Assembly: GCA_017474455.1 (NCBI GenBank)
Contig: JAFVHP010000036.1
Coordinates: forward strand, 1-64,000
Direction of reading: 5' to 3'
Source of the DNA: Lachnospiraceae bacterium
GTDB taxonomy: Bacteria > Bacillota > Clostridia > Lachnospirales > Lachnospiraceae
DNA length: 64,000 nt
The translations under genes were made by a program, and so were the position numbers. The stretch's first letter is position 1; every line of letters begins with the position of its first letter. The notes under the pieces are model-generated. The model had not been told where the DNA came from and searched no databases. It saw nothing but the letters and a program-made list of their open reading frames with translations. Positions 12,559-52,076 of the stretch are shown piece after piece.

Positions 12559-13990
12559 TCAGATTCTTATAAAAATCCACGCATCCAGGCAGACAGTTGT
12601 ATTCGATATTCTCATTGAGACCGTGCATGCCCTTCATCTGTTCGGGGCCGTAGATGACCGGCGCGAACCGGACGACATTGTCACATATCTTCTGGTAGAA
12701 CCTGGCGTCCGTGGCTCCCGTCATGACATAAGGGCTGCCCGGCAGGCCGGGGAAGGTCTCTCCTATCACCCGCTGCACGAGGCCGAAGGCCTCTCCATGG
12801 ATATCCACGGATTCTGACGGATCGACGGCATGCATGACTTCCATATCCAGGCTGTGCTTGTCCGCCAGTTTCCTGATGACGGCAATGCTCTCTTCCATGC
12901 CCTGATGGGGAATGAACCGCATATTCGCTCCCAGCGTAGCCTCCTGCGGCATAACGTTGTAAGCGTCGGAACCGGACTGCATCGTGAACGCGATCGTGGT
13001 CCTTAGCATGGCGCCCGCCTGGGCGGATATTTTCGGCATGACGATGAGAAGGAGCGGTTTAAACAGCCACATATTGCCGAATACCAGCTTCAGCGGGAAA
13101 GATGCGTACGGAGCCAGCGTTTCGAACATGGACTGCACTTCCGGCAGCATCTTCCTGCGGAAGGGATTCTTCGTTTCGATCTCATTGACAAAGGCGGATA
13201 ACCTGGCAATGGGCGAATGGGCGGAAGGAGCGCTGGCGTGGCCGCCGTTGCTCTTTGCCTTCAGTTTTATGTCGGCCTTGCCCTTTTCAAATACGCCGGC
13301 CATGGCGAAATTGCCTTTGATGCCGCCGACCGGGTCGGTGATGATGCCGCCGCCTTCGTCAACGACGAGCCAGGGCCTTACACCTCTTCTTTCCAGCTCA
13401 TCGACCAGCTTCGGGCAGCCGTCGCCCATCCACTCCTCCGTGCAGGAGGAGGACAGATACACATCCACAGGCGGGACATACCCTTCCGAAAGCAGCTCTT
13501 CCGCCGCCTGGAAAAAGCCCATGACCGAGCATTTGGTATCTGACGCGCCCCGTCCCCAGACTTTCCCGTCCGCGATATCGCCGGAGAAAGGATCATGGAT
13601 CCACTCTCCTTCCGCAGGCACCACGTCCTGATGGCTCATGAGGACCAGAGGCCTGGAATGATCTTTTCCTGCCCAGTAAAAGAGCAGGTTCCCGTCGATC
13701 TGTGTCTTTTCCAGTTCCCGATGTACCAGGGGAAACAGCTCCTCCAGCACTTTATGAAAGGCCAGGAATTTCTCCGTTTCGTGCATGCCGTCATGGGAGA
13801 CTGTCTCGCAGCGGATCATCTCCGACAGCTTCCGCGCGTAGCCCATGGCCCTTTCGTCGGCCTCGGGCGCTTTATAGGATGATACCTTTGAAGGCGTAAG
13901 AAGGGTCCTGACGAGCGCGGCCAGTAAAAGCAGTGCGCAGACGGCCAGGATGATCCCGGCCGCAATGGGCAGAATAAGCAGCAGTTTCAT
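12545..13990 (-). CDS. Membrane-anchored M20 family metallopeptidase
   Basis: Predicted 481-residue peptidase of the M20 family (ArgE/DapE/carboxypeptidase S type), with two Zn2+ in the active site. Residues 4-32 (LLLILPIAAGIILAVCALLLLAALV) form an N-terminal membrane anchor. Metal-site motifs are seen: LMSHQDVVPA (His, Asp), GRGASDTK (Asp), SSSCTEEWMGDG (catalytic Glu with ligand Glu) and a C-terminal GMHGLNENIEY (His). The dimerisation domain starts near GKADIKLKAKSNGGHAS. Length and anchor resemble PM20D1-like carboxypeptidases that cleave or condense N-acyl amino acids. It is the last gene of a minus-strand operon, one base after the preceding stop, behind two small membrane proteins. Substrate unknown: a dipeptide or N-acyl amino acid is most likely. 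Confidence 0.88.
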   Translation of the reverse strand: MKLLLILPIAAGIILAVCALLLLAALVRTLLTPSKVSSYKAPEADERAMGYARKLSEMIRCETVSHDGMHETEKFLAFHKVLEELFPLVHRELEKTQIDGNLLFYWAGKDHSRPLVLMSHQDVVPAEGEWIHDPFSGDIADGKVWGRGASDTKCSVMGFFQAAEELLSEGYVPPVDVYLSSSCTEEWMGDGCPKLVDELERRGVRPWLVVDEGGGIITDPVGGIKGNFAMAGVFEKGKADIKLKAKSNGGHASAPSAHSPIARLSAFVNEIETKNPFRRKMLPEVQSMFETLAPYASFPLKLVFGNMWLFKPLLLIVMPKISAQAGAMLRTTIAFTMQSGSDAYNVMPQEATLGANMRFIPHQGMEESIAVIRKLADKHSLDMEVMHAVDPSESVDIHGEAFGLVQRVIGETFPGLPGSPYVMTGATDARFYQKICDNVVRFAPVIYGPEQMKGMHGLNENIEYNCLPGCVDFYKNLIRAM

Positions 13991-39800: not shown

Positions 39801-41888
39801 ATGAAACACACTAAACAGAAAAGAAACCTTGCAAAGCTGCTGTCCGCTGTCCTGATGTCTGTGCTCTTTCTGTCGCTGCCTTTGACTGCCCTTCACGCGA
39901 GGGATGCCGGCGGCATCGAAAGCAAAAATCTTCTGGACAATCCCGGCGGTGAAGACGGGGACCTGTCCGGATGGACAGATGCTGCGGAAGAAGAAACCGG
40001 GGACGGGACCTTCTCCGCTGTCCCGGAATACGTCTGGGGAAGCAGTATTATCGAACCTTTTGAAGGCGGTTATTTCTTTTTTGCCGGCGCTACGCCGGGA
40101 AACCGTATATACCAGGATGTCGACATCTCTGATTATCCCGCCGGGAGCAGGTTCACCCTGTCAGGTTATATGAACGGCTGGGAGACCGATCACGGCGACA
40201 ACTCTTATCTGGAAATGGATTTCCGCGACCGCAGGGGCCGCAGCCTTGCCGCGGACAGCGTATGCGAACCCAGCATCGCCGGATGGGAGCTTTATAAGCT
40301 CGTAATGGAAAAGCCGGAAGGCGCCGAAACAGTCAGGGTCTCCCTGATCGCGGAAAGAAACACCGGCTCAGACTGCGACAGCTATTTTGACGGTATCTCC
40401 CTGACCGCGGAAGTGCCTGAGGAGGACGCAGAAGAAAAAGAAGAGCGCCCGGCAGGCAATGACAAAAAGACTCCGGAAGAAGAAGTATTGTGGACGAACT
40501 TTAATACGGACGCCGTCCATAACGGCGCGCCGGTGTCCATAACCATAAATGTGGAAGATGAAGTCAGGATCACTTCGATCACGACCTATCACTGGAATGA
40601 CGGTAAAGGCGATACGCCCGGTTCGATAAGTATCTGGACAGGCGGGGAACAGCTGGGATCCTGGGATGCCGAAGCCCGTTCAGGCTCCGGCGCCGACAAT
40701 GTCCTCTGGGACATCGCGCCGGACATCGTCCTGAAAGCAGGCAAGGCGTATGACTTCGTGGATTCTTCCCCGGCGACCTGGAGCTGCAACTCCGGATCGG
40801 ATAATGAAGGATTCCTGGAGATCCGCGGCTGGTTCACTTCTGACGAAGAGACGGGCGCCTATTATGTCGGTGAGCCCAACTATGAGCTCAGCTACGGCAC
40901 CGGGACCTCCCCGACTTCCTATATCAATCCTGTCTATATCTCCTGTGATGTTGAAAACGGGGAACTGCTGATCGCCTATACGAACGAAAAAGACCATTTC
41001 GGCAGCCTTGACAGTGAAGACCCGGAGGAATATGACCGGCTCCAGAAGACTGCCCTGTATGAAAAGACGAGGTCCGGACGCTGGAGGAAGCTTGGCCGCG
41101 TGTCCACGAAGATCACCGGCGCCTACAACGCGAGGAACGATGAAGGCGATTACGGCACGATACGGCTGGCGTTCTGCAGCCGTGACAAGGCGTTTTCCTT
41201 TACCGGGAATGAATATGCCGTCAGTTTCGATATTTATACCAACGGGCACCATATGACACCGGAAGACGCGGACCTTTTCCTGATCGAAGACGCGCCTGAG
41301 ATCATGCCGGCGGACATAGAGACGGATGATGGAGAGGAAGACGGATCAGACCGTTCCGGTGAAAGCGCCGGAGGACCGGCAGCATATGCCGTGACAGGCG
41401 GCCGTTTTGAGATCCTGCAGTCCGGCGAAAAGGTCTATCACAAAGCGGACGGAAGCGATGCCGTGAATGAATGGGTCGAAGAAGACGGAAAATACTTTTT
41501 CCTGGACCACAGCGGCTGCCTGATGAAGGACTGTTACAGTTCCGACGGTTACTGGGTAGCCGGCGACGGCAGCTGGATGGAAAGCGTGCCCCAGCGCACG
41601 GATGATCCCGAGCCTCTTGCCGATACTGAATATGCCGATGAGACCGGCACCGTCTGGACATTTGATTTTATCCGCTACGCGGATGGAAAGCACTACTGCA
41701 TCGCGACGAAATCATACAGTTTCGGGTATGAAGAGACCTTTGACATGACTCCGATCGGCCACGGCGGCTATCTTCTGGAAGATGAAGAGAACCCCGGCAT
41801 GTACTGCCAGCTTTCCGTTTCTTCCGATCAGAAAAGCATCATCGTGAGCGGCTCGGGCAGTTCAGACGATTATCAGGCTCAGGACTGA
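39801..41888 (+). CDS. Large secreted wall-associated multidomain protein
   Basis: Predicted 695-residue exported protein without recognised enzyme domain. Residues 1-33 are a signal peptide (LLSAVLMSVLFLSLPLTAL, cleavage near HA). Residues about 40-200 look like a carbohydrate-binding jelly roll (NLLDNPGGEDGDLSGWTDAA, GGYFFFAGATPGNRIYQDVD). An acidic linker follows. Residues about 232-345 form a second beta domain (SITTYHWNDGKGDTPGSISI). A third beta region reaches about 505. Residues about 550-600 contain KVYHKADGSDAVNEWVEEDG and KYFFLDHSGCLMKDCYSSDG, aromatic/Gly repeats like putative cell-wall-binding repeats. A final 85-residue domain follows. AAGGAGG precedes the ATG. The last ten bases overlap the convergent YczE-like gene. 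Adhesion or glycan binding is a reasonable guess. Confidence 0.78.
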   Translation: MKHTKQKRNLAKLLSAVLMSVLFLSLPLTALHARDAGGIESKNLLDNPGGEDGDLSGWTDAAEEETGDGTFSAVPEYVWGSSIIEPFEGGYFFFAGATPGNRIYQDVDISDYPAGSRFTLSGYMNGWETDHGDNSYLEMDFRDRRGRSLAADSVCEPSIAGWELYKLVMEKPEGAETVRVSLIAERNTGSDCDSYFDGISLTAEVPEEDAEEKEERPAGNDKKTPEEEVLWTNFNTDAVHNGAPVSITINVEDEVRITSITTYHWNDGKGDTPGSISIWTGGEQLGSWDAEARSGSGADNVLWDIAPDIVLKAGKAYDFVDSSPATWSCNSGSDNEGFLEIRGWFTSDEETGAYYVGEPNYELSYGTGTSPTSYINPVYISCDVENGELLIAYTNEKDHFGSLDSEDPEEYDRLQKTALYEKTRSGRWRKLGRVSTKITGAYNARNDEGDYGTIRLAFCSRDKAFSFTGNEYAVSFDIYTNGHHMTPEDADLFLIEDAPEIMPADIETDDGEEDGSDRSGESAGGPAAYAVTGGRFEILQSGEKVYHKADGSDAVNEWVEEDGKYFFLDHSGCLMKDCYSSDGYWVAGDGSWMESVPQRTDDPEPLADTEYADETGTVWTFDFIRYADGKHYCIATKSYSFGYEETFDMTPIGHGGYLLEDEENPGMYCQLSVSSDQKSIIVSGSGSSDDYQAQD

Positions 41889-42556
41889 AACTTACCGACG
41901 ATCCTGCTGACGGTCCTTTCGTTGACAGGAAGGAATATCCCTGCCACAGGACCCACCAGCGCGACGCAGATCAGGGTGCCGATGCCGGCTGTCCCGCCCA
42001 TCAGGAAACCGGCCAGTGTGAACAGCGCGTCCACCACCAGCCTTGTTATGCTGAATTTCAGTTTCAGCTTGTCCGAGAGGGCCACCGCCACCAGGTCATT
42101 GGGCCCGGTGCCCGCATCTGATTTGATCACTATGGTCATCCCGTAAGAGAGGATGACACAGCCCAGCGCCACCATGACGATCCGTGCCGCCAGAGAACCG
42201 GACCCGGAGACTACAGGCCCCAGCATCCATGTGAAAGCATCGATGATGGGGCCTCCGCACAGCATGCAGAGTATCGTCCCGATCTTCACATAACTCCTGT
42301 CCACGACGATAAGCACGAGCATGATCAGCACGCATATGCCCATATGCACCCCTCCGTGGGTGACAAAGGACAGTCCGAAGCTTTCCGTAAGCCTGCCGGT
42401 TATCCCCTGGACCAGGACATTGAACGGGTCCGATCCCAGGTCAGAGAGAAGGAACAGCGTAACGCCGAAATGGGCAATAATAAGGCCGGCCATCAAAATG
42501 GCCGACCTTATGATCCACTCTTTTACTGTCCTGTTCCCGATCTTCGCGCTCAGCAT
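41879..42556 (-). CDS. YczE/YitT-like integral membrane protein, last gene of the T-box operon
   Basis: Predicted 225-residue membrane protein resembling the YczE/YyaS/YitT group. About five segments, with IIRSAILMAGLIIAHFGVTL, FLLSDLGSDPFNVLVQGITG (the conserved DLGSDP loop), GVHMGICVLIMLVLIVVDRS, VIKSDAGTGPNDLVAVALSD (a second conserved polar loop, DAGTGPND) and TLAGFLMGGTAGIGTLICVA. The ATG at 42556 overlaps the last codons of the gamma-subunit gene by seven bases, so it is translated as part of the oxidoreductase operon; a longer frame upstream lacks a ribosome-binding site. Function unknown. Position suggests it may move the organic acid substrate or product, which is inference. Confidence 0.78.
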   Translation of the reverse strand: MLSAKIGNRTVKEWIIRSAILMAGLIIAHFGVTLFLLSDLGSDPFNVLVQGITGRLTESFGLSFVTHGGVHMGICVLIMLVLIVVDRSYVKIGTILCMLCGGPIIDAFTWMLGPVVSGSGSLAARIVMVALGCVILSYGMTIVIKSDAGTGPNDLVAVALSDKLKLKFSITRLVVDALFTLAGFLMGGTAGIGTLICVALVGPVAGIFLPVNERTVSRIVGKFQS

Positions 42557-43086
42557 TCGTATGCGGCGCCGATATCCATCGCCTTGAGGTTCAGGTCGTA
42601 CAGGTTCTGGTGACGCGCCGAGACGCACTTGTGAAGGGCGTCCTCCAAAAAGTCCCTGGAGATCTCCGGGACGACACTCATCAGTTTGCCTGTCATGACC
42701 ATGTTGGCAAGGGTCGGGGCTCCCATTTCGTTGGCAAGCATCGTGGCAGGGATCTCATAGACCTCGACGTCGGTCCTTTTCACATGCCTGGTGATCAGGG
42801 TGGAATCTATGAAGATCTTTCCGCCGGGCTTTACCGCGTCTTCATATTTATCCAGTGAAGGCAGATTCATCGCGATCAGGATATCCGGCTTTGTAATGAT
42901 CGGAGATCCGATCGGAGTATCGGAGATGGTCACCGAGCAGTTCGCCGTACCGCCGCGCATCTCGGGGCCGTAAGACGGCAGCCATGATACCTGCCTGTCT
43001 TCCAGCAGCGCTTTGTACGCAAGAAGTTTTCCTGAGAACAGGATCCCCTGTCCGCCGAATCCGGCAAATAAGATTTCCAGTGTCAT
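42550..43086 (-). CDS. 2-oxoacid:ferredoxin oxidoreductase, gamma subunit
   Basis: Predicted 178-residue gamma subunit of the pyruvate/ketoisovalerate oxidoreductase family. [20 protein letters not shown] is the N-terminal signature of the gamma domain, followed by [20 protein letters not shown] with the conserved GPEMRGG. It helps bind coenzyme A and completes the active site with the alpha and beta subunits. It starts two bases after the beta-subunit stop. Gamma, beta, alpha and delta are all present as separate genes, the four-subunit archaeal/clostridial VOR/KOR arrangement. Substrate is discussed under the alpha subunit. Confidence 0.9.
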
Positions 43087-43088
43087 AC

Positions 43089-43847
43089 TTAAGCCTCCTT
43101 TGCAGCAGCTGCTGTCCTGTCCTTGTAAACGCCCAGCGGATAATAAGGGATCATCTTATCATCGATCCACTTCAGCGCTTCCTGGGGAGACAAGCCCCAG
43201 TTGGTCGGGCAGGCCGAGACGACTTCGATCAATGAAAAGCCTTTGCCTTCCACCTGGTTGCGGAAAGCCTTTTCAATCGCGCGCTTGGCGTTGTTGATAT
43301 TCTTCACGCTGTTGACGGCGACTCTTTCAATATACTCGGGGCCGTCAAGCGTAGCGAGCATTTCGCACACTCTTACGGGATAACCTGCCGTTTTGACGTC
43401 ACGCCCGTAAGGGGAGGTCTGTGTGACCTGTCCCGGAAGGGACGTGGGAGCCATCTGTCCGCCTGTCATTCCGTAGATCGCGTTATTGACGAAGATGACC
43501 GTGATATTCTCACCGCGGGTAGCCGCGTGTACGGTTTCCGCCATACCGATCGAAGCAAGGTCGCCGTCGCCCTGATAAGTGAACACGATACGGTCCGGAA
43601 GGGATCTTTTGATGCCTGTCGCCATGGCCGGGGCACGGCCGTGGGCGGCTTCCGCCATATCACAGTTGAAATAGTCATATGCCATGACCGCACAGCCTAC
43701 CGGTGCGACGCCGATCGTGATGCCTTCTATATCAAGGGCATCGATGGCCTGCGCGACGAGCTTGTGGATGATACCGTGCGTGCAGCCCGGGCAGTAATGC
43801 AGTTCCAGGTCTGAGAGTGCGTGCGGTTTTTCGTAAACGATTGCCAT
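43089..43847 (-). CDS. 2-oxoacid:ferredoxin oxidoreductase, beta subunit (TPP-binding)
   Basis: Predicted 252-residue thiamine pyrophosphate-binding subunit. HYCPGCTHGIIHKLVAQAID has the conserved CPGC-H cluster- and TPP-site motif; FTYQGDGDLASIGMAETVHA is the GDG motif with the downstream FVNNAIYGMTGGQMAPTSLP that together bind Mg-TPP. CPTNWGLSPQEALKWIDDKM is the C-terminal block shared with 2-oxoglutarate and branched-chain oxidoreductases. The start overlaps the alpha-subunit stop by one base. The complex catalyses 2-oxoacid + CoA + oxidised ferredoxin to acyl-CoA + CO2 + reduced ferredoxin, a reaction that can run in reverse when reduced ferredoxin is plentiful. Confidence 0.9.
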   Translation of the reverse strand: MAIVYEKPHALSDLELHYCPGCTHGIIHKLVAQAIDALDIEGITIGVAPVGCAVMAYDYFNCDMAEAAHGRAPAMATGIKRSLPDRIVFTYQGDGDLASIGMAETVHAATRGENITVIFVNNAIYGMTGGQMAPTSLPGQVTQTSPYGRDVKTAGYPVRVCEMLATLDGPEYIERVAVNSVKNINNAKRAIEKAFRNQVEGKGFSLIEVVSACPTNWGLSPQEALKWIDDKMIPYYPLGVYKDRTAAAAKEA

Positions 43848-44908
43848 CAGTCCATCCCTCCTTCCAGATTCTTAACGGTCTCAATGATCTGCTCCGGTGT
43901 GGGGATCATCCCGCCTACGCGGCTGCAGAGCACGACGGGCTTCTTGCTGTTTTCCGCAAGCTTGATGTCTTCGATCATCTGTCCCATCGAAAGTTCGACG
44001 GAAACGAAGGCTTTTACCTTATCGGAAGCTTCAAGGACCGCCTTCTTCGGGAAAGGCCACAGCGTGACAGGGCGGATAAGGCCAGCCTTTATCCCTTCGG
44101 CACGGAGGGCAGTTACCGCGTTTTTCGCGACACGCGCGGCTATGCCGTACGCCACAAGGCCGATCTCGGCATCGTCCATCATGAAGGACTCGAAGCGGAC
44201 TTCGTTCTCTTCCACCGTCTTATAACGTTCGAAGCGCTCAAGGTTCTTCTTTTCGAGCATTTCGGGATTGAGATAAAGCGAATTGATGATATTGTGCTTC
44301 CTCTTTCCCTCCGTGCCCGTGATGGCCCAGGGCTTTTCGACCGGTTTGTATTCGATATTCTCAAGGGTGACCGGCTCCATCATCTGGCCGATCGTGCCGT
44401 CCGCAAGGATCATGGCCGGCATACGGTATTTATCGGCCAGGTCGAAGGCGAGCGCAGTAAGGTCAGCCATCTCCTGTACGGAAGCGGGTGCCAGTACGAT
44501 CAGGTGGTAATCACCGTGTCCGCCGCCTTTTGTCGCCTGGAAATAATCCGACTGTGAAGGCTGGATACCGCCCAGGCCCGGGCCGCCGCGCTGTACGTTG
44601 ATGATCAGTGCGGGCAGGTCTGACCCTGCGATATAGGAGATACCCTCCTGCTTTAAGGAAACACCCGGGGAACTGGAAGAAGTCATGACGCGCTTGCCGG
44701 TGCCGGCAACGCCGTATACCATATTGATGGCGGCGATCTCAGACTCTGCCTGCAGGAACGTTCCGCCGATCTTGGGCATCATTTTGGCCATATAGGCCGC
44801 CAGCTCCGTCTGCGGTGTTATCGGATAGCCGAAATAATGGCGGCAGCCTGACCTGATAGCCGCCTCGGCGATCGCTTCATTACCTTTCATTAGTACTTTT
44901 TCTGCCAT
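43847..44908 (-). CDS. vorB: 2-oxoacid (3-methyl-2-oxobutanoate-type):ferredoxin oxidoreductase, alpha subunit VorB
   Basis: Predicted 353-residue alpha subunit. It reads like proteins annotated VorB: KVLMKGNEAIAEAAIRSGCR, HYFGYPITPQTELAAYMAKM, FLQAESEIAAINMVYGVAGT, TSSSSPGVSLKQEGISYIAG and VQRGGPGLGGIQPSQSDYFQ. These form the pyrimidine-binding TPP domain. The VOR group prefers branched-chain 2-oxoacids from valine, leucine and isoleucine; relatives act on 2-oxoglutarate, so sequence alone is suggestive. The Ile-type T-box leader of this operon and the acyl-CoA synthetases upstream strengthen the branched-chain assignment. The ferredoxin-like delta gene lies nine bases upstream. Confidence 0.88.
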   Translation of the reverse strand: MAEKVLMKGNEAIAEAAIRSGCRHYFGYPITPQTELAAYMAKMMPKIGGTFLQAESEIAAINMVYGVAGTGKRVMTSSSSPGVSLKQEGISYIAGSDLPALIINVQRGGPGLGGIQPSQSDYFQATKGGGHGDYHLIVLAPASVQEMADLTALAFDLADKYRMPAMILADGTIGQMMEPVTLENIEYKPVEKPWAITGTEGKRKHNIINSLYLNPEMLEKKNLERFERYKTVEENEVRFESFMMDDAEIGLVAYGIAARVAKNAVTALRAEGIKAGLIRPVTLWPFPKKAVLEASDKVKAFVSVELSMGQMIEDIKLAENSKKPVVLCSRVGGMIPTPEQIIETVKNLEGGMD

Positions 44909-44917
44909 GCCGTCACC

Positions 44918-45124
44918 TTACCTTTCCACCGTTATGACCGAATCCGGGCACATGATAGCGCAAGAAGCGCAGCCCACGCATTTCTCGGGATACAGGATGA
45001 CAGCCGGCGAATACCCTTTCCGGTTGATCTCTTCCTTATCCAGGGCAAGAAGATCCAGCGGGCAGGCTTCAACGCACAGACCGCAGCCCTTGCAGATGTC
45101 CTTGTTGAATGTAACTTTTGCCAT
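44918..45124 (-). CDS. 2-oxoacid:ferredoxin oxidoreductase, delta subunit (two [4Fe-4S] ferredoxin)
   Basis: Predicted 68-residue electron-transfer subunit with two cluster motifs: CKGCGLCVEACP and CVGCASCAIMCP, each CxxCxxCxxxCP, binding two [4Fe-4S] clusters. It accepts electrons from TPP-linked chemistry in the beta subunit and passes them to free ferredoxin, or the reverse. The ATG at 45124 follows AGGAGGCATACGA; an in-frame ATG seven codons upstream lacks a site. It lies between the P-loop ATPase and alpha-subunit genes, in the usual delta-alpha-beta-gamma order. Confidence 0.92.
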   Translation of the reverse strand: MAKVTFNKDICKGCGLCVEACPLDLLALDKEEINRKGYSPAVILYPEKCVGCASCAIMCPDSVITVER

Positions 45125-45153
45125 TCGTATGCCTCCTGAAAACAATGATATTG

Positions 45154-45846
45154 TCAGTACTTTTTCTGCAGCTTCAGTGTGAACACATCCGGTATGCTCT
45201 TTGCGGCTTCCTCAGAGATCTTTTCATATACTGTCGTCATGACCAGCGGGAGCCCGGCAAGATCTGCCAGCACTTTTGACTTCTCATATCCCGACTGGAC
45301 CGTACCGACCAAAGTCTCTTCCGCCAGGTTCGTATTGTTGACGATCCCGGTAAACGGGATACGGCATGCTTCCTCGATCTCCATGAGCACTTCCATGGCC
45401 TCTTCCGGTTCCCGGGTAAGGGGCCTCATGAAGTTGGCTACGAACAGCATCTCGAAGTTCTGTTCCTCGAGGATATACTGCCTGTAGCGGCCCAGCGCGT
45501 ACGCCCCGCGGTCGTCGCCGCCGATATCGAGAACGGCGTAGCGGCTCTGGTCCTGCACCAGCCTGTATGCCTCGGCAGGGAGCGAGGGCAGGTCTACGGA
45601 TGAATTCGCGAAGGGAAGGCTGATGACCTCGATGCCTGCCGCCCTCAGTTCATCCTCCGAATCCTTGGTCCTGAAATAGGGGTTCACCACATCCAGGTCG
45701 CCGATGGAAACGGGCAGGCCGCGGCGGCTCAGGTATTCCGCATAGTTGACCGCGATGTTGGTCTTGCCGCTGCCGTAATGCCCCGCCAGGAGCGTTACTC
45801 TGCGCGGATCCGGAGAAAGCGGCCCGGATACGGGTGCCGTACCCAT
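45154..45846 (-). CDS. P-loop ATPase of the MinD/ParA-like type inside the oxidoreductase operon
   Basis: Predicted 230-residue soluble ATP-binding protein. VTLLAGHYGSGKTNIAVNYA contains the Walker A loop GHYGSGKT; SIGDLDVVNPYFRTKDSEDE resembles the switch region of deviant-Walker ATPases (DxDVVNP), and YAVLDIGGDDRGAYALGRYR looks like Walker B. It ends in KLQKKY. The gene overlaps the upstream synthetase stop by one base and precedes the ferredoxin subunit, so it is certainly co-expressed. Comparable ATPases beside 2-oxoacid oxidoreductases are found in Clostridia as I recall, but their job is not established; cluster loading or complex assembly is a plausible inference. Confidence 0.78.
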   Translation of the reverse strand: MGTAPVSGPLSPDPRRVTLLAGHYGSGKTNIAVNYAEYLSRRGLPVSIGDLDVVNPYFRTKDSEDELRAAGIEVISLPFANSSVDLPSLPAEAYRLVQDQSRYAVLDIGGDDRGAYALGRYRQYILEEQNFEMLFVANFMRPLTREPEEAMEVLMEIEEACRIPFTGIVNNTNLAEETLVGTVQSGYEKSKVLADLAGLPLVMTTVYEKISEEAAKSIPDVFTLKLQKKY

Positions 45847-48134
45847 TACAGATCGTGGCGGATGATCTTGCCGGATACTGTCTTCGGAAGCTCATCCCTG
45901 AATACGACCAGTCTGGGATACTTGTACGGAGCCGTATGGGTCTTGACGTAATCCTGGATCTCCTTTTTCAGCTCTTCCGTAGGCTCGGTCCCCTTTGTAA
46001 GGACGACGGAAGCCTTTACGATCTGTCCCCTGACCTCGTCCGGGGCAGCGGAAACGCCGCACTCCAGGACATAGGGAAGTTCCATGATCACGCTCTCTAT
46101 CTCGAAAGGCCCGATACGGTAGCCGGAAGACTTGATCATATCGTCTACGCGGCCGACGTACCAGTAATAACCGTCCTCATCACGCCACGCGGTATCGCCC
46201 GTATGGTAGAATCCGTCGTGCCAGACTGCTTTTGTGCCTTCTTCGTTGTGATAATATCCGGTGAACAGGCCGTTGGGCTTGCCCTTGCTGACGTCGATGA
46301 CGATCTCGCCGACTTCACCGTCAGGCACAGGATTGCCTTCGGCATCCACCAGGGAAACATCGTAGATCGGGGCGGGCTTGCCCATGGAGCCGATCTTGTG
46401 CGCAGCGCCCACAAGGTTGCCGATGATCATCGTGGATTCCGACTGGCCGAAACCTTCTATGATCTGGAGCCCGGTCAGCTTTTCGAACTGCCTGTACACT
46501 TCGGGGTTCAGCGCTTCGCCCGCGGTCGTCATCCGCTGTACGGAGCTGAAATCGTATTTGGAGATATCCTCCTTGATCATCATGCGCAGCATGGTCGGCG
46601 GCGCGCAGAATGTGGTGATCTGGTATTTCGCGAACATGGGCATGATCTTCGCGGCGTCGAATCTGTCAAAGTCATATACGAAGGTCGCGGATTCGTTCAG
46701 CCACTGGCCGTACAGCTTGCCCCACATGGCCTTCGCCCAGCCCGTATCGGAGATCGTAAAGTGGAGTCCGTCCGGATCTGTCCCGTGCCAGTATTTCGCC
46801 GTATGGAAATGACCCAGCGCGTATTTGTGGTTGTGGACCGCGATCTTGGGATAGCCCGACGTTCCAGACGTAAAGAACATGATCATCGGGTCGTCGCCGC
46901 AGGGTGAATCCTCGGTACGCACGATATGTGAGCTGAAAAGCACATATTCATCATCGAAGGAACGCCATCCTTCGCGCCTGCCGTTGACGATCAGGAGGTT
47001 CTTCACCTGAGGCGCGCTCTTTAAGGCCTCTTCGACGCTTTCCGCCGTGTTGCCGTCCGCCGTGCAGATGATGGTCTTCACGTCGGCAGCCTTGATGCGG
47101 TATTCGATGTCATGGGCCAGGAGCTGCGCGGTCGCCGGGATTGCGACGGCGCCGATCTTGTTGAGCCCCAGCATCGCGAACCAGAACTGGTAATGGCGCT
47201 TAAGGATGAGCATGACCTTGTCGCCCTTTTTGATGCCGAGGGATTTGAAGTAGTTGGCGCACTTGCAGGACGCGTGGCGCATATCAGTGAATGTGAAGCG
47301 CTTTTCGTTCCCGTCCCTGTCCACGTACAGCATGGCCAGCTTTTCGGGTTCCTTATAGGAAAGCGCATCGACAAGGTCGAAAGCGAAGTTGAATTTATCG
47401 GTATTCTTGAACTTGATCGAAGTAGGAGTACCCTTTTCATTCTCTTCAACATCGATGTACTGCTGCCAGATACGTTCTTTTGTATCTTTCTTGACAACGC
47501 TTCTGGGTTCCTCCATGGGAACGTGCAGCAGATTCTGTATCGGCGCGCCGGTAGGGTTCAGGACGATGGCATAGAACTCACAGTCTTCGCCGTTGACGGC
47601 GACCATCCCGTGGGGCGTGGAAGAATCAAGATAGATCGAGTCCCCGGGGTTCAGCGTGGTCTTGTGCCCGCCGATCTGCACCATCAGGTGTCCCGAGATC
47701 ACGATATCCAGCTCCTGCCCTTCATGGGTGGTCAGCTCGATGTCGCGCTGCTCCGCGCCGTTAATATAGTTGCTCCTGACGAACAGCGGCTCCGCAATCC
47801 TGTTGATGAAGGTATTCGCGAGGTTATAATATGTCATTCCGTGCGCGTTCGCGATCTCCTGGCCTTCGTTCGCCCGGGTCACCATAAAGGATTTAAGGGT
47901 CGGGCTGTGGCCTTCGATGATATCCGTCGCATCGACGCCCAGGGCCAGCGCGCACCTGTAGATAAAGGCAAATGTCAGGTCCGCCTCACCTGATTCGCAG
48001 GCTACATACTCTTCCTGCGTGACGTCGGTCTTGGCAGCCATCTCATACGTCGTCAGGCCCAGGATCTCCCTCAGCTCTTTAATTCGTTCCGCCATTTCTC
48101 GGATCTTGAAATCAAGTCCGGTCATCTGTGCCAT
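45846..48134 (-). CDS. XRE-HTH/cupin/acyl-CoA synthetase fusion (second copy)
   Basis: Predicted 762-residue three-domain protein. Residues about 12-68 are an XRE-type helix-turn-helix (RIKELREILGLTTYEMAAKT, DVTQEEYVACESGEADLTFA). Residues about 120-195 are a cupin barrel (ELTTHEGQELDIVISGHLMV, LNPGDSIYLDSSTPHGM). From about 245 onward it is an AMP-forming acyl-CoA synthetase of the medium/short-chain type: A3 loop FFTSGTSGYPK (420-430), GEALNPEVYRQFEKLTGLQI then EGFGQSEST, YVGRVDDMIKSSGYRIGPFE and the C-terminal LPKTVSGKIIRHDL with the adenylation Lys. The synthetase part activates a carboxylic acid to its CoA ester. HTH-cupin pairs are normally free-standing regulators, so the fusion is unusual. 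AAAGGAG precedes the ATG. Paralogue at 48164-50443. Confidence 0.87.
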   Translation of the reverse strand: MAQMTGLDFKIREMAERIKELREILGLTTYEMAAKTDVTQEEYVACESGEADLTFAFIYRCALALGVDATDIIEGHSPTLKSFMVTRANEGQEIANAHGMTYYNLANTFINRIAEPLFVRSNYINGAEQRDIELTTHEGQELDIVISGHLMVQIGGHKTTLNPGDSIYLDSSTPHGMVAVNGEDCEFYAIVLNPTGAPIQNLLHVPMEEPRSVVKKDTKERIWQQYIDVEENEKGTPTSIKFKNTDKFNFAFDLVDALSYKEPEKLAMLYVDRDGNEKRFTFTDMRHASCKCANYFKSLGIKKGDKVMLILKRHYQFWFAMLGLNKIGAVAIPATAQLLAHDIEYRIKAADVKTIICTADGNTAESVEEALKSAPQVKNLLIVNGRREGWRSFDDEYVLFSSHIVRTEDSPCGDDPMIMFFTSGTSGYPKIAVHNHKYALGHFHTAKYWHGTDPDGLHFTISDTGWAKAMWGKLYGQWLNESATFVYDFDRFDAAKIMPMFAKYQITTFCAPPTMLRMMIKEDISKYDFSSVQRMTTAGEALNPEVYRQFEKLTGLQIIEGFGQSESTMIIGNLVGAAHKIGSMGKPAPIYDVSLVDAEGNPVPDGEVGEIVIDVSKGKPNGLFTGYYHNEEGTKAVWHDGFYHTGDTAWRDEDGYYWYVGRVDDMIKSSGYRIGPFEIESVIMELPYVLECGVSAAPDEVRGQIVKASVVLTKGTEPTEELKKEIQDYVKTHTAPYKYPRLVVFRDELPKTVSGKIIRHDL

Positions 48135-48163
48135 AAGCGCACTCCTTTATTTCAGCTAGCTGT

Positions 48164-50443
48164 TTACAGTTTATTTCTCTGTATTTTTCCCGATATTGTT
48201 TTGGGAAGCTCATCACAGAATACCACAAGCCTCGGGTATTTGTAAGGCGCAGTATGCTCTTTTACGTAATTCTGTATCTCTTTTGCAAGCTCTTCGCTGG
48301 GTTCGTTCCCCTTCGTGAGCACGATGGAAGCCTTGACGATCTGGCCCCTGAGCTCGTCCGGAGCTGCCGAAACCCCGCATTCCAGGACGTACGGGAGTTC
48401 CATGATGACGCTTTCGATCTCGAACGGCCCGATACGGTAGCCGGAGGACTTGATGATATCATCTGCGCGGCCGACATAGAAGAAATAGCCGTCCTCATCG
48501 CGCCATGCGGTATCGCCGGTATGATAGAGGCCGTCCCTCATGCACTGCGCCGTCAGTTCCTCATCCTTATAATATTCGGAGAACAGACCGACCGGCGATC
48601 CCTCTTCTATATGGATCACGATCTCGCCGATCTCGCCGTTCGCTACGGGGTTGCCGTCGGGATCCACGATATCCACGCCGTACTGCGGGGATGCCTTGCC
48701 CATCGAACCGGTCTTGACAGCCGCGCCCTGGAAGTTGGCGACCGTAAGCGTCGTTTCGGTCTGACCGAAACCTTCCATGATCTCAAGCCCCGTGGCTTCG
48801 CGGAATATCTTCGCCACTTCGGGGTTCAGCGCCTCGCCGGCCGTGGTCATGTTGCGGATGGAGCTGAAATCATATTTCGTAAGATCCTCGCGGATCATCA
48901 TTCTGAGCATCGTAGGCGGCGCGCAGAACGTGGTGATCTTGTACTCGGCGAACAGAGGCAGGATGTCTTCCGCATGGAAGCGGTCAAAGTCATATACGAA
49001 GACCGCGCCTTCGCACATCCACTGTCCGTAGAGCTTGCCCCAGAGCGATTTTCCCCAGCCGGTATCGGAGATCGTGAAATGAAGCCCATCAGGCTGGCAG
49101 CCGTGCCAGTACCTGGCCGTAGCGAAATGCCCGAGCGAATAAGTATGTTTGTGCCTGACCATCTTCGGGTTGCCGGACGTGCCGGAGCTGAAGAACATAA
49201 GCGCCGTATCGTCGCCGCACGGTGTCTCGTCCGTCCTGGCATATACACTGGAGTAGACCTTGTACTCGCGGTCAAAATCATGCCACCCTTCCTTTTTCCC
49301 GCCGACCAGGAGCCTTAACCGGACAGAGGGGCATTCGGGCAGCACACGGTCCACGATATCCGCCGTATCGCCGTCCGCAGTACAGATGATCGCCTTGATC
49401 TGTGCGGAATTGAAACGATAGACAAAATCATGTTCCTTGAGCTGATATGTTGCAGGCACCGCGATCGCGCCGAGCTTGTGCAGGCCGATCATGGCGGGCC
49501 AGAACTCCCAGTGACGCTTTAAGACCAGCATGACCATGTCGCCGGGGCCGATGCCAAGAGTGCTGAAGTAATTGGCGCAGCGGTTCGATTCTTTCTTTAT
49601 CTCCTTAAAGGTGAACCTACGTTCTTTCTTGTTCTTGTCAAGATGGATCATGGCCAGCTTGTCGGGATACTTTTCGGCAATCGCGTCCACCACATCGAAG
49701 CCGAAGTTGAAGGTCTCCGTATTCTTGAACCGGATGTCCTTAAGGATGCCCTGGCTGTCCTCTTCCGTCTCCACGAATTTCTCCACGAGAAGATGCGTAG
49801 AAGGACGGGCGGCCGCCACCGTCTGGCGGATCACGGATTCCTGCGTCTCTTCCTCAGGAAGGACAACAGCCAGAAAAACACAGTCTTCCCCTCCGGTCGC
49901 TATCATTCCGTGCGGTGTCGAACTGTTGTAGTAAATGCTGTCGCCCGCGTAGAGTATCTCCTTATTGCTGCCCACCTGGACGATCATCGTACCTTCGAGA
50001 ACATAGTCGAATTCCTGTCCCGAATGGCGCGTCAGATGGATCGGCTGGTGCTGCAGGGCTTCCGAATACTCATAACGGACGAAATAAGGTTCGGAAAGCT
50101 TGTTCTTGAACGCAGGGGCAAGGTTCCGGATATCGATACCTTCTTCCTTGGCTGTCTGGTGTCCTTCTCCCTCACGGGTGACCGTATAGGAAGTAAGGCG
50201 GGCATTGGAACCTTCCAGCAGTTCGGTAAGCTCGATGTTAAAGACCAGGGCGCACTTATGGATAAATGTAAAGGGGAGGTCCTTTTCACAGTGCTCGTAG
50301 GCGATGTAGTCTTCCAGAGATACTTCTGTCAGTTTCGCCATGTCCTCCTCGGTATACCCGAGGATCTCCCGCATTTCCACGATACGCCTGGATATATCTT
50401 CCAGCTGTGTCATTGAGCTTTGTTCCTTAGCATGAAAATCCAT
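48164..50443 (-). CDS. XRE-HTH/cupin/acyl-CoA synthetase fusion (first copy, directly behind the T-box)
   Basis: Predicted 759-residue paralogue of the next gene with the same order: XRE helix-turn-helix (ISRRIVEMREILGYTEEDMA, residues about 15-70), cupin (LTRHSGQEFDYVLEGTMIVQ, LYAGDSIYYNSSTPHGMIA), then AMP-forming acyl-CoA synthetase with FFSSGTSGNPK, GEALNPEVAKIFREATGLEI, EGFGQTETT, YVGRADDIIKSSGYRIGPFE and LPKTISGKIQRNKL. The ATG at 50443 follows AGGAGGATTCCGGT; the open frame upstream runs back through the T-box terminator and is not coding. The T-box leader (50460-50757) lies directly before it, making transcription of the whole operon depend on tRNA charging. Two full-length copies suggest different acid substrates, for example 2-methylbutyrate and isobutyrate or isovalerate (inference). 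Confidence 0.87.
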   Translation of the reverse strand: MDFHAKEQSSMTQLEDISRRIVEMREILGYTEEDMAKLTEVSLEDYIAYEHCEKDLPFTFIHKCALVFNIELTELLEGSNARLTSYTVTREGEGHQTAKEEGIDIRNLAPAFKNKLSEPYFVRYEYSEALQHQPIHLTRHSGQEFDYVLEGTMIVQVGSNKEILYAGDSIYYNSSTPHGMIATGGEDCVFLAVVLPEEETQESVIRQTVAAARPSTHLLVEKFVETEEDSQGILKDIRFKNTETFNFGFDVVDAIAEKYPDKLAMIHLDKNKKERRFTFKEIKKESNRCANYFSTLGIGPGDMVMLVLKRHWEFWPAMIGLHKLGAIAVPATYQLKEHDFVYRFNSAQIKAIICTADGDTADIVDRVLPECPSVRLRLLVGGKKEGWHDFDREYKVYSSVYARTDETPCGDDTALMFFSSGTSGNPKMVRHKHTYSLGHFATARYWHGCQPDGLHFTISDTGWGKSLWGKLYGQWMCEGAVFVYDFDRFHAEDILPLFAEYKITTFCAPPTMLRMMIREDLTKYDFSSIRNMTTAGEALNPEVAKIFREATGLEIMEGFGQTETTLTVANFQGAAVKTGSMGKASPQYGVDIVDPDGNPVANGEIGEIVIHIEEGSPVGLFSEYYKDEELTAQCMRDGLYHTGDTAWRDEDGYFFYVGRADDIIKSSGYRIGPFEIESVIMELPYVLECGVSAAPDELRGQIVKASIVLTKGNEPSEELAKEIQNYVKEHTAPYKYPRLVVFCDELPKTISGKIQRNKL

Positions 50444-50459
50444 ACCGGAATCCTCCTGT

Positions 50460-50503
50460 AAAAAAAGACCCGTCCCAAAGATAATATATCCTTGAGACGA
50501 GTC
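50460..50503 (-). terminator. T-box-controlled intrinsic terminator
   Basis: GACTCGTCTCAAGGATA (from 50503) pairs with TCTTTGGGACGGGTC through Watson-Crick and G-U pairs, followed by seven T ending at 50460. It ends 17 bases before the synthetase start. Confidence 0.85.
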
Positions 50504-50757
50504 CGAATCCTCTTCGATACCCGCGGTACCACTCAAATTGCCGCAATAAAGCGACCGCTCTTCGAAGTCCAACAACTTCTATGCACTGACGCAGCATACG
50601 CGTAAGACCCTACGCAGGCCGGGCGGCCTTTCAGATCTTCGGCTCGGAAGTGATGGGACATCTGTTTCACACTGCCGGGATCCCAGCTACCCCGGCTCTC
50701 TGGAAGTGCTTCCAAACAGCGCCGTCTTCGTCACAGCCTTTAAAAAGTATTAAATTG
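50460..50757 (-). ncRNA. T-box leader, isoleucine-type specifier (tRNA-Ile)
   Basis: The minus-strand leader has all T-box parts. Stem I base: GGCT with AGCC around a GTGA/CGA kink motif. Upper helix CTGTTT (50719-50714) pairs with AAACAG (50667-50662), GAAG (50729-50726) with CTTC (50650-50647). Between them the 3' strand of the specifier loop ends in ATC (50654-50652) followed by A, an Ile codon. AGAGAG is the AG bulge motif. The T-box sequence TGAGTGGTACCGCGG covers 50536-50521; its bulge TGGT (50531-50528) would pair with the ACCA end of a tRNA having A73, as tRNA-Ile does. The terminator is at 50503-50460. Uncharged tRNA favours the antiterminator and read-through. The specifier assignment is my manual fold. 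Confidence 0.88.
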
Positions 50758-50763
50758 TTGTAC

Positions 50764-50792
50764 ATTATTCCACTTTAAACCGGAAAAGTCAA
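50764..50792 (-). promoter_or_regulatory. Promoter of the T-box/acyl-CoA synthetase/VOR operon
   Basis: On the minus strand TTGACT (50792-50787) and AATAAT (50769-50764) are 17 bases apart, placing the transcript start near 50757 at the beginning of the T-box fold. Confidence 0.7.
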
Positions 50793-50924
50793 TTTCAAAT
50801 ACTGAACAAATTTAAATGCAATCCGCCTGTTTTCATGTGATAAATGTACAGAGCCGGTCCGCGCTATCCTGTATAATATACTTATGCTTCCAATGACACC
50901 GGCATACAGGAGAAAAACAATACT

Positions 50925-52076
50925 ATGAAAAAACGGCTTCGCTACGGCCTTGTAGGCGCAGGGCTCACATCTTTTATCGGATCTGTCCACCGGATCAGCG
51001 CGTCCTTCGACGGGCTTACCGACCTTGCGGCAGGGTGCTTCAGCCGTGACAGCACAAAGAACCGCGAATGCGGGGATTTCCTCCGGCTGGATCCTGACCG
51101 TGTATATGACAGTTTTGAAGAAATGGCGCAAAAGGAAAGCCTGCGTGAAGACGGGATCGATTTCGTCACCATCGCTGCCCCGAACGACGTTCATTATGCC
51201 GCTGCGAAGGCATTCCTTATGCACGGGATCCATATCCTGTGCGAAAAGCCCCTGTGCTATACCGTTGAAGAGGCGGAAGAACTCAAGGCGCTGGCTGCGG
51301 AGCACCACTGTCTGTTCTGCGTCAATTATTCCTACTCCGGCAACGCCATGGTCAAAGAAGCCAGGGAGCTGGTCAGGCAGGGGGCTCTGGGCGAGATCAT
51401 CGACGTCAAGGCCGAATACCTGCAGGAGTATCTTGCGGACGATATAGGGCAGACCTCCAAGACCATGAACGCGATGTCGGCCTGGCGCAAGGATCCCTCT
51501 GTAGCGGGCGTCTCCAACTGCGTAGGGGACATAGGCAGCCATATAGAAAACACCGTAGCCTGCATTACGGGGCTCAGGATAAAGAGACTGGCGGCGAAAC
51601 TTGATTATTTCGGCCAGCCGCTGGACCTCAATGCCAACATCCTTATCGAACTGGAAAACGGCGCCCACGGTGTTTTCAGCTCTTCCCAGGTCTGCATCGG
51701 GCACAGGAACGGTTTTGTCGTCAGAATTTTCGGAACGGAGGGCTCCCTGGAATGGCATGAGGAGAACCCGGGACAGCTGATCGTCGCGAAAAAAGGCCAG
51801 CCCCTGCAGATCTACGACAAAGGCATGACCTATATATCTCCCGTTGCCGCCGGCATGGTCCGCATCCCGGCCGGGCACCCGGAGGGATATTATGAAGCTT
51901 TCGCCAATATGTACAAAACATGGGTAAACGCCGTCCTGAAATACGAAAACGGCGAAGAACTGACCGCGCAGGATCTGGACTTTCCGGATATAGATGAGGG
52001 GATCCGCGGCATCCGGTTCATTCACGCCTGCGTAAAGAGCAGCCGGGAAGACGCCGCATGGGTGGACGTTATTTAG
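50925..52076 (+). CDS. Gfo/Idh/MocA family oxidoreductase
   Basis: Predicted 383-residue NAD(P)-dependent sugar dehydrogenase-like protein. The Rossmann start RYGLVGAGLTSFIGSVHRIS holds the G-x-G-x-x loop. DFVTIAAPNDVHYAAAKAFL and HILCEKPLCYTVEEAEELKA are the hallmark blocks, with the EKP catalytic-region Lys. The C-terminal alpha/beta domain includes GDIGSHIENTVACITGLRIK, where the conserved D-x-G-x-H histidine lies. Substrates in this family are sugars, inositols or amino-sugar derivatives; the exact one is not readable. CAGGAG precedes the ATG, and a TATAAT (50872-50877) lies 47 bases upstream. It is divergent from the T-box operon and overlaps the convergent HD gene by eight bases. Confidence 0.88.
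   Translation: MKKRLRYGLVGAGLTSFIGSVHRISASFDGLTDLAAGCFSRDSTKNRECGDFLRLDPDRVYDSFEEMAQKESLREDGIDFVTIAAPNDVHYAAAKAFLMHGIHILCEKPLCYTVEEAEELKALAAEHHCLFCVNYSYSGNAMVKEARELVRQGALGEIIDVKAEYLQEYLADDIGQTSKTMNAMSAWRKDPSVAGVSNCVGDIGSHIENTVACITGLRIKRLAAKLDYFGQPLDLNANILIELENGAHGVFSSSQVCIGHRNGFVVRIFGTEGSLEWHEENPGQLIVAKKGQPLQIYDKGMTYISPVAAGMVRIPAGHPEGYYEAFANMYKTWVNAVLKYENGEELTAQDLDFPDIDEGIRGIRFIHACVKSSREDAAWVDVI

Follow-up and report, generated by a model that had tools for sequence, protein, structure and literature searches.

An isoleucine T-box leader precedes an acyl-CoA synthetase/VOR-type oxidoreductase operon predicted to convert branched short-chain acids to isoleucine and valine

Introduction

Why does a T-box leader that reads isoleucine stand in front of genes for acyl-CoA synthetases and a 2-oxoacid oxidoreductase? 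This question is raised by an operon of a Lachnospiraceae bacterium (assembly GCA_017474455.1), located on the minus strand within the first 64,000 nucleotides of contig JAFVHP010000036.1. This whole stretch is referred to as the window. Between positions 41879 and 50792 a T-box leader was found with a promoter-like site ahead of it and eight genes behind it, among them two acyl-CoA synthetase genes (ACS1 and ACS2) and four genes for an oxidoreductase of the 2-ketoisovalerate oxidoreductase (VOR) type. Judged by its sequence and that of its relatives, the operon very probably makes isoleucine and valine from external branched short-chain acids.

Feeding work established decades ago that rumen anaerobes derive branched-chain amino acids from branched acids. 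By reductive carboxylation, 2-methylbutyrate is converted to isoleucine and isobutyrate to valine (PMC7356843, citing Allison and Peel 1971, and Robinson and Allison), and the same branched-acid route was described for Methanobrevibacter (PMC2812497).

Results

The T-box family RF00230 of Rfam gave a full-model match at 50490-50743 (E = 1.2e-17). In an E-value search of 50300-51000, model positions 1-219 were covered with 80 bits, below the gathering score of 93, which is a curation threshold; at gathering thresholds, cmscan gave zero matches across the window. Two features of T-boxes, a specifier codon and a UGGN bulge, are both present. The specifier is ATC (isoleucine) at 50654-50652, and the antiterminator (50491-50537) carries the 7-nt bulge UGGUACC, with TGGT at 50531-50528. 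An intrinsic terminator lies at 50466-50504, a hairpin (-25.6 kcal/mol, z = -8.5) with a T run behind it. The 3' arm of the antiterminator doubles as the 5' arm of this hairpin, and the two structures are thus predicted to be mutually exclusive by pairing. The folding energy of the antiterminator alone was no better than that of shuffled sequences (z = -0.39). Support from covariation was provided by an alignment of the window leader with 19 of 63 AUC leaders from relatives, where compensatory changes, one or more per pair, were seen at 29 of 58 predicted pairs; the ATC was invariant in all 20 sequences. The original prediction of a complete isoleucine T-box with a TGGT bulge is hence borne out, though by a match below the gathering score. 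Upstream of the leader, a promoter-like site (TTGACT-N17-AATAAT, with TG ahead of the second hexamer) was located at 50764-50792. Such sites were not in excess across the region (6, compared to 6.2 in shuffled sequences).

Two T-boxes were detected in the genome (RF00230, E <= 0.001). The second lies at 4373-4632 of contig C15; inspected by eye, it has the specifier TGG and precedes a trpB-like gene. A separate T-box for ACS2 of the window was considered and rejected, as the gap to ACS1 is just 29 bases and the two T-boxes of the genome are the isoleucine leader and the TGG leader.

The eight genes behind the leader had been described as tightly packed. Indeed, all are present and separated by gaps of 29, 29, 9 and 2 bases or joined by short overlaps. 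The first two encode ACS1 (48164-50443), a predicted 2-methylbutyryl-CoA synthetase, and ACS2 (45846-48134), a predicted isobutyryl-CoA synthetase. The two proteins share 59% identity, and each consists of an N-terminal helix-turn-helix (HTH) and cupin part fused to an AMP-forming acyl-CoA synthetase; the HTH match of ACS1 is below the Pfam cut-off. For both, the top NCBIfam match is MbcS (NF047394; 437.4 bits for ACS1 and 443 bits for ACS2, cut-off 850), and it spans their catalytic part only.

A P-loop ATPase (45154-45846) follows, which matches no clear family in NCBIfam and Pfam scans (CbiA domain 22.8 bits, under the cut-off of 25.4). A homologue, selected by length and identity, was found in 57 of 80 related loci, typically right before the VOR genes, and the protein may help to assemble or activate the oxidoreductase. 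The latter is encoded by genes for a delta subunit with two 4Fe-4S motifs (44918-45124), an alpha subunit (43847-44908), a beta subunit with a thiamine pyrophosphate domain (43089-43847) and a gamma subunit (42550-43086). The alpha subunit passes the VorB subfamily model (NF005507, 556.1 bits, cut-off 399). Beta (111.7 bits, cut-off 261.9), gamma (71.4, 81.1) and delta (45.4, 60.05) reach the Pfam domain cut-offs and miss those of the pyruvate/2-ketoisovalerate families; the enzyme is therefore called VOR-type and not VOR. The last gene (41879-42556) encodes a YczE-like membrane protein (85.5 bits, cut-off 205) and, with the ATG at 42556 as start, would overlap the gamma gene by a few bases. 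It had no tblastn match at E 1e-8 in the 80 related loci, and is perhaps a transporter.

Related loci were collected by scanning genome contigs with the two synthetases as queries, and the best 80 of 578 loci were kept. By title these are mostly Clostridia assemblies, many of rumen or gut origin. Together with ten further loci (two of them from genomes already among the 80) and the window they form the locus set, in which a T-box motif was looked for in the 650 bases upstream of each synthetase gene. An AUC leader stands ahead of 75 of 82 ACS1 genes, window included (72 by script; L025, L035 and L055 by eye); for three others the upstream DNA is too short to judge. It also precedes all five single synthetases from the family of the window, and the leader is clearly not unique to the window genome. 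ACS2 genes were preceded by a GUA (valine) leader in 51 of 54 cases, window included. The exceptions are L077 and the window itself, both without motif, and L042, where the leader could not be decoded and was counted as not found.

The codon of a leader and the gene behind it correspond closely. By script, the next gene was ACS1 after 63 of 63 ATC leaders, ACS2 after 49 of 50 GTA leaders and a leuA-like gene after all 11 CTC or CTG leaders. Two mispicked codons were omitted from this tally, a GAG in L087 (GTA by other readings) and a CAG in L066, inside the gamma gene. At L048, which has no ACS2, a GTA leader at position 12642 precedes an ilvE-like gene; this valine T-box is perhaps the leftover of a lost ACS2. 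The isoleucine, valine and leucine codons share one register. Other frames were rejected: a shift by -1 base would give mostly His or Tyr for the isoleucine class, Cys for the valine class and Ser for the leucine class, and a shift by +1 base Ser, stop and Ser, respectively. In the database TBDB, AUC is the specifier of 99% of isoleucine T-boxes and CUC that of 74% of leucine T-boxes (PMC7778990).

With cmscan, RF00230 matched the isoleucine, valine and leucine leaders of L013 and L083 and the isoleucine and valine leaders of L154 (E 3e-14 to 9e-28). The gathering score was passed by two leucine leaders (126.5 and 122.7), and the six isoleucine and valine leaders stayed below it (74.1 to 90.9). 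A promoter-like site (score <= 3) accompanied 62 of 63 isoleucine, 50 of 50 valine and 10 of 10 leucine leaders, compared to 15, 9 and 2 in shuffled sequences.

Genes for later steps of branched-chain amino acid synthesis are found close by. Among 50 loci with ACS1, ATPase and gamma genes, 40 have an ilvE-like gene (26 after gamma, 14 before it); the one such gene from related loci that was tested scored over the ilvE cut-off. The leucine T-box, with CTC and once CTG, and its LeuA-like gene are seen at L013:13793-15187 onward, L050:18909-22265, L030:4384-8210 and L087:512-4392. Often the gene behind it encodes a xylose-isomerase-like TIM barrel fused to an acyl-CoA synthetase (domains assigned by Pfam in L030 only).

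Other neighbors were noted in the related loci. At L154:10209-10526, two tandem Clostridiales-1 RNAs (RF01699) lie between ACS1 and the valine T-box. A carbon-nitrogen hydrolase gene comes soon after the synthetases in six loci (L014, L042, L070, L073, L075, L087), and a gene with ACT and metallo-beta-lactamase-fold parts directly after ACS1 in five (L023, L026, L029, L047, L053); one of each kind was assigned by Pfam (hydrolase, L087:14910-15698; ACT gene, L053:12320-13756). A third HTH-cupin synthetase (41-44% identity) occurs in L157, L161, L162 and L149 and adjoins VOR genes in L157 and L161. A T-box was found ahead of none of these four distant genes, one of which has too little upstream DNA.

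To see if the genome lacks the usual route to isoleucine had been proposed as a check, and the outcome for ilvC, ilvD and ilvA agrees with such a lack. No match to ilvC was obtained in the window genome (96.6% complete), compared to a match in 14 of 14 control genomes. Likewise, ilvD had no match in the window genome or in six other synthetase carriers of the family, and was over cut-off in six of six family controls. The ilvA score was below cut-off in the window genome, G125, G012, G030 and G020 and over it in six of six controls. The transaminase gene ilvE is retained (over cut-off), and the genome also has a LeuA-like gene, which contains a LeuA_dimer domain and scores under the leuA cut-offs. 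Citramalate synthase (TIGR00977) was over cut-off in none of 20 genomes, ilvC-bearing family controls included, and is thus uninformative. At L164:7879-10744 (contig C30), the gene directly behind the ilvE of the window genome matches POR_N weakly and by eye resembles an indolepyruvate oxidoreductase alpha subunit.

Co-distribution of the synthetases with ilvC was analyzed in two samples. The first comprised 50 of the genomes behind the 80 loci (L008-L048 and nine later ones). Nine of these carriers had ilvC over cut-off, and 12 more had weak matches. ACS2 was found in 0 of 9 ilvC-positive and 33 of 41 ilvC-negative carriers (Fisher 9.7e-6, kinship ignored), or in 35 of 41 of the latter when two distant genes are counted (Fisher 2.0e-6, kinship again ignored). 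The idea that ilvC-positive carriers all lack ilvA was dropped, as it is true for just four of the nine.

The second sample consisted of 150 genomes from the family of the window, the window genome among them. A synthetase was taken as a full-length HTH-cupin type if its match began at residue 14 or earlier with E < 1e-280. In this family ilvC is common (over cut-off in 135 of 150), and full-length synthetases occur in seven genomes. In none of these did ilvC exceed the cut-off; it had no match in six and a trace at 3e-4 in G146. Among the other 143 genomes ilvC was absent or a trace in five and not over cut-off in eight (Fisher test against carriers 2.7e-9 and 2.2e-8, respectively, kinship ignored). 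All seven carriers have an ATC leader ahead of the synthetase. Five of twenty matches without the HTH-cupin part were inspected (L131-L134, L143), and no such leader was seen.

The relation between ACS1 and ACS2 was addressed with a quick tree of 73 of 143 rows (even-numbered loci, the set of the ten further loci, and the window). The synthetases with a valine leader form one clade together with ACS2 of the window (support 100), and those with an isoleucine leader a second clade together with ACS1 of the window (support 99). The five single synthetases from the family of the window, all with ATC, branch outside both. By parsimony the specifier changed once on this tree, rows without a decoded specifier being excluded. 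The simplest history would be a duplication with a specifier switch. Under this history ACS2 of the window, which falls inside the valine clade, would have lost its valine leader.

The best solved relative of both synthetases is PDB entry 3ETC (E 1.3e-188 for ACS1, 7.6e-180 for ACS2), which covers the catalytic part only, the HTH-cupin part lying outside the match. The entry is labeled just as an AMP-binding protein; we take it to be the acyl-CoA synthetase of Methanosarcina acetivorans that prefers 2-methylbutyrate. Its acyl pocket is presumably formed by W237, W254, K256, W259, C298 and G351, which map onto 3ETC with one constant offset. These six residues are identical in ACS1 and ACS2 of the window and in 82 of 82 ACS1 rows, and are kept across the 52 ACS2 rows wherever these are not gapped (1-3 gaps at five sites).

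Between two of the pocket residues lies alignment column 464, the sole catalytic column (230-759) where each group has its own residue in 85% or more of the rows. It is Gly in 81 of 82 ACS1 rows, in all five single isoleucine-type synthetases and in 3ETC, and Ala in 51 of 52 ACS2 rows, with a gap in the remaining one. Columns 467 and 464, both on this pocket segment, are the two most divergent of the catalytic part. The bigger side chain at 464, if it points into the pocket, would suit the smaller isobutyrate. Most of the strongly divergent columns (29 of 34, positions 19-759) are situated in the HTH, cupin and linker parts, and the paralogues therefore differ most in the fused sensor-like part. 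The HTH-cupin part of ACS1 comprises residues 1-225 (window 50443-49769). This part may sense a ligand.

Discussion

From the leader, the gene families and the loss of standard genes, we infer substrates, direction and tRNA response of the operon as follows. ACS1 would activate 2-methylbutyrate and ACS2 isobutyrate, and the VOR-type enzyme would carboxylate both acyl-CoAs to the 2-oxoacids, using CO2 and reduced ferredoxin. A branched-chain transaminase would then complete isoleucine and valine; leucine would probably be made from 2-oxoisovalerate by way of the LeuA-like enzyme. When isoleucine is short, uncharged tRNA-Ile would pair with the AUC codon and its free acceptor end would stabilize the antiterminator, so that the genes are read. 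ACS2 of most relatives appears to be under separate control, with its own promoter-like site and valine T-box; a single isoleucine T-box would control the whole operon of the window. Synthesis is favored because it accords with AMP-forming activation, VOR-type genes, transaminase, leader codons and the missing standard genes, and the biosynthetic, non-degradative role proposed for the operon is supported. As to substrates, the earlier assignment of 2-methylbutyrate fits ACS1. Isobutyrate, offered before as a further candidate, is assigned to ACS2 because ACS2 of relatives has a valine T-box. Isovalerate, the third acid named, is an unlikely substrate of either synthetase.

Several observations weigh against this interpretation. 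Four of 82 ACS1 genes (L010, L030, L047, L048) have no T-box motif in the 650 bases upstream. The MbcS scores of ACS1 and ACS2 are about half the family cut-off, and the proteins are not assigned as MbcS. Five of the nine ilvC-positive carriers have ilvA over cut-off, so that the branched-acid route is not the sole route there. A single synthetase is found in six of 41 ilvC-negative genomes, and two more have only a distant second one. In five of seven family carriers no VOR genes adjoin the synthetase in the DNA examined, and VOR genes elsewhere were seen only in G089. The third type of synthetase has Ala at column 464 in three of four cases (Leu in one); hence Ala is not peculiar to the valine type. 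Moreover, the Fisher tests take no account of kinship, and many genomes are incomplete assemblies.

Three other explanations were weighed. The operon might be a salvage or redox device beside uptake or the standard pathway and mainly dispose of reduced ferredoxin. The retention of ilvC in nine of 50 tested carriers, five of them with ilvA over cut-off, speaks for such a device, but the window genome and six family carriers have neither ilvC over cut-off nor an ilvD match, and we consider this explanation unlikely. The synthetases could also mainly feed branched-chain fatty acid synthesis like MbcS of Staphylococcus aureus, with the oxidoreductase in a side function. MbcS, the nearest named family, takes 2-methylbutyrate and isobutyrate, hardly isovalerate, and its described role is fatty acid priming (PMC10026030). 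A mainly lipid function is at odds with the isoleucine and valine specifiers, with VOR and ilvE-like genes as neighbors in the same cluster and with the lack of ACS2 in the carriers that retain ilvC; it appears very unlikely, while a double role in amino acid and fatty acid synthesis is possible. Finally, it is highly improbable that the operon ferments isoleucine, valine and leucine: the VOR of many anaerobes does run oxidatively, and the gene families also occur in degraders, but AMP-forming synthetases spend rather than gain ATP, a T-box opening at isoleucine shortage would be badly timed for breakdown, the carriers of the family sample have neither ilvC over cut-off nor ilvD, and relatives have ilvE-like and leuA-like genes nearby, the latter with a leucine T-box.

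Synthesis of isoleucine and valine from branched acids thus remains our preferred reading, and it can be compared with described systems. The leader shares with known T-boxes (RF00230) the Stem I specifier loop, the AGAGAG motif, the UGGU bulge and the mutually exclusive antiterminator and terminator; it differs in the regulated genes, which are acyl-CoA synthetases and a VOR-type oxidoreductase. In the open literature searched, as far as its text was available, no case of a T-box on such a gene set was found, and the main text of the TBDB paper, tables aside, has no mention of ferredoxin, acyl-CoA or oxidoreductase in the parts available (PMC7778990). A T-box ahead of leuA has been published, for example in Geobacter (PMC2700814). 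The same paper lists a conserved sequence upstream of Geobacter iorAB-paaK under tryptophan. These genes, as here, combine an oxoacid oxidoreductase and an acyl-CoA ligase, but they are aromatic, not branched, and the T-box label is given there only for the leuA sequence (PMC2700814). Reports on rumen bacteria and methanogens provided activities, growth needs and a genome-based pathway guess, whereas the present analysis links the gene set to an RNA control specific for the amino acid and to the missing standard route. As far as the open literature searched can tell, the gene set with codon-labeled control is new; the physiology itself is old.

Leader codons provide a direct, checkable substrate label for each synthetase, which would be a case of an RNA specifier annotating the specificity of an enzyme. 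Tentatively, we propose a wider picture, in which rumen and gut Clostridia without the standard pathway would use three switches, the leader codon naming both the amino acid and the acid of the next enzyme: isoleucine for a 2-methylbutyrate synthetase, valine for an isobutyrate synthetase that arose from the former by duplication, with a new specifier and with Gly replaced by Ala in the pocket, and leucine for a LeuA-like enzyme. The HTH-cupin part might add a second, ligand-sensing layer, and the whole could be the genetic basis of the rumen need for branched volatile acids. The loss of ilvC and ilvD would explain this need. If this is true, growth requirements for isobutyrate and 2-methylbutyrate, which are relevant to ruminant feeding, would become readable from genomes.

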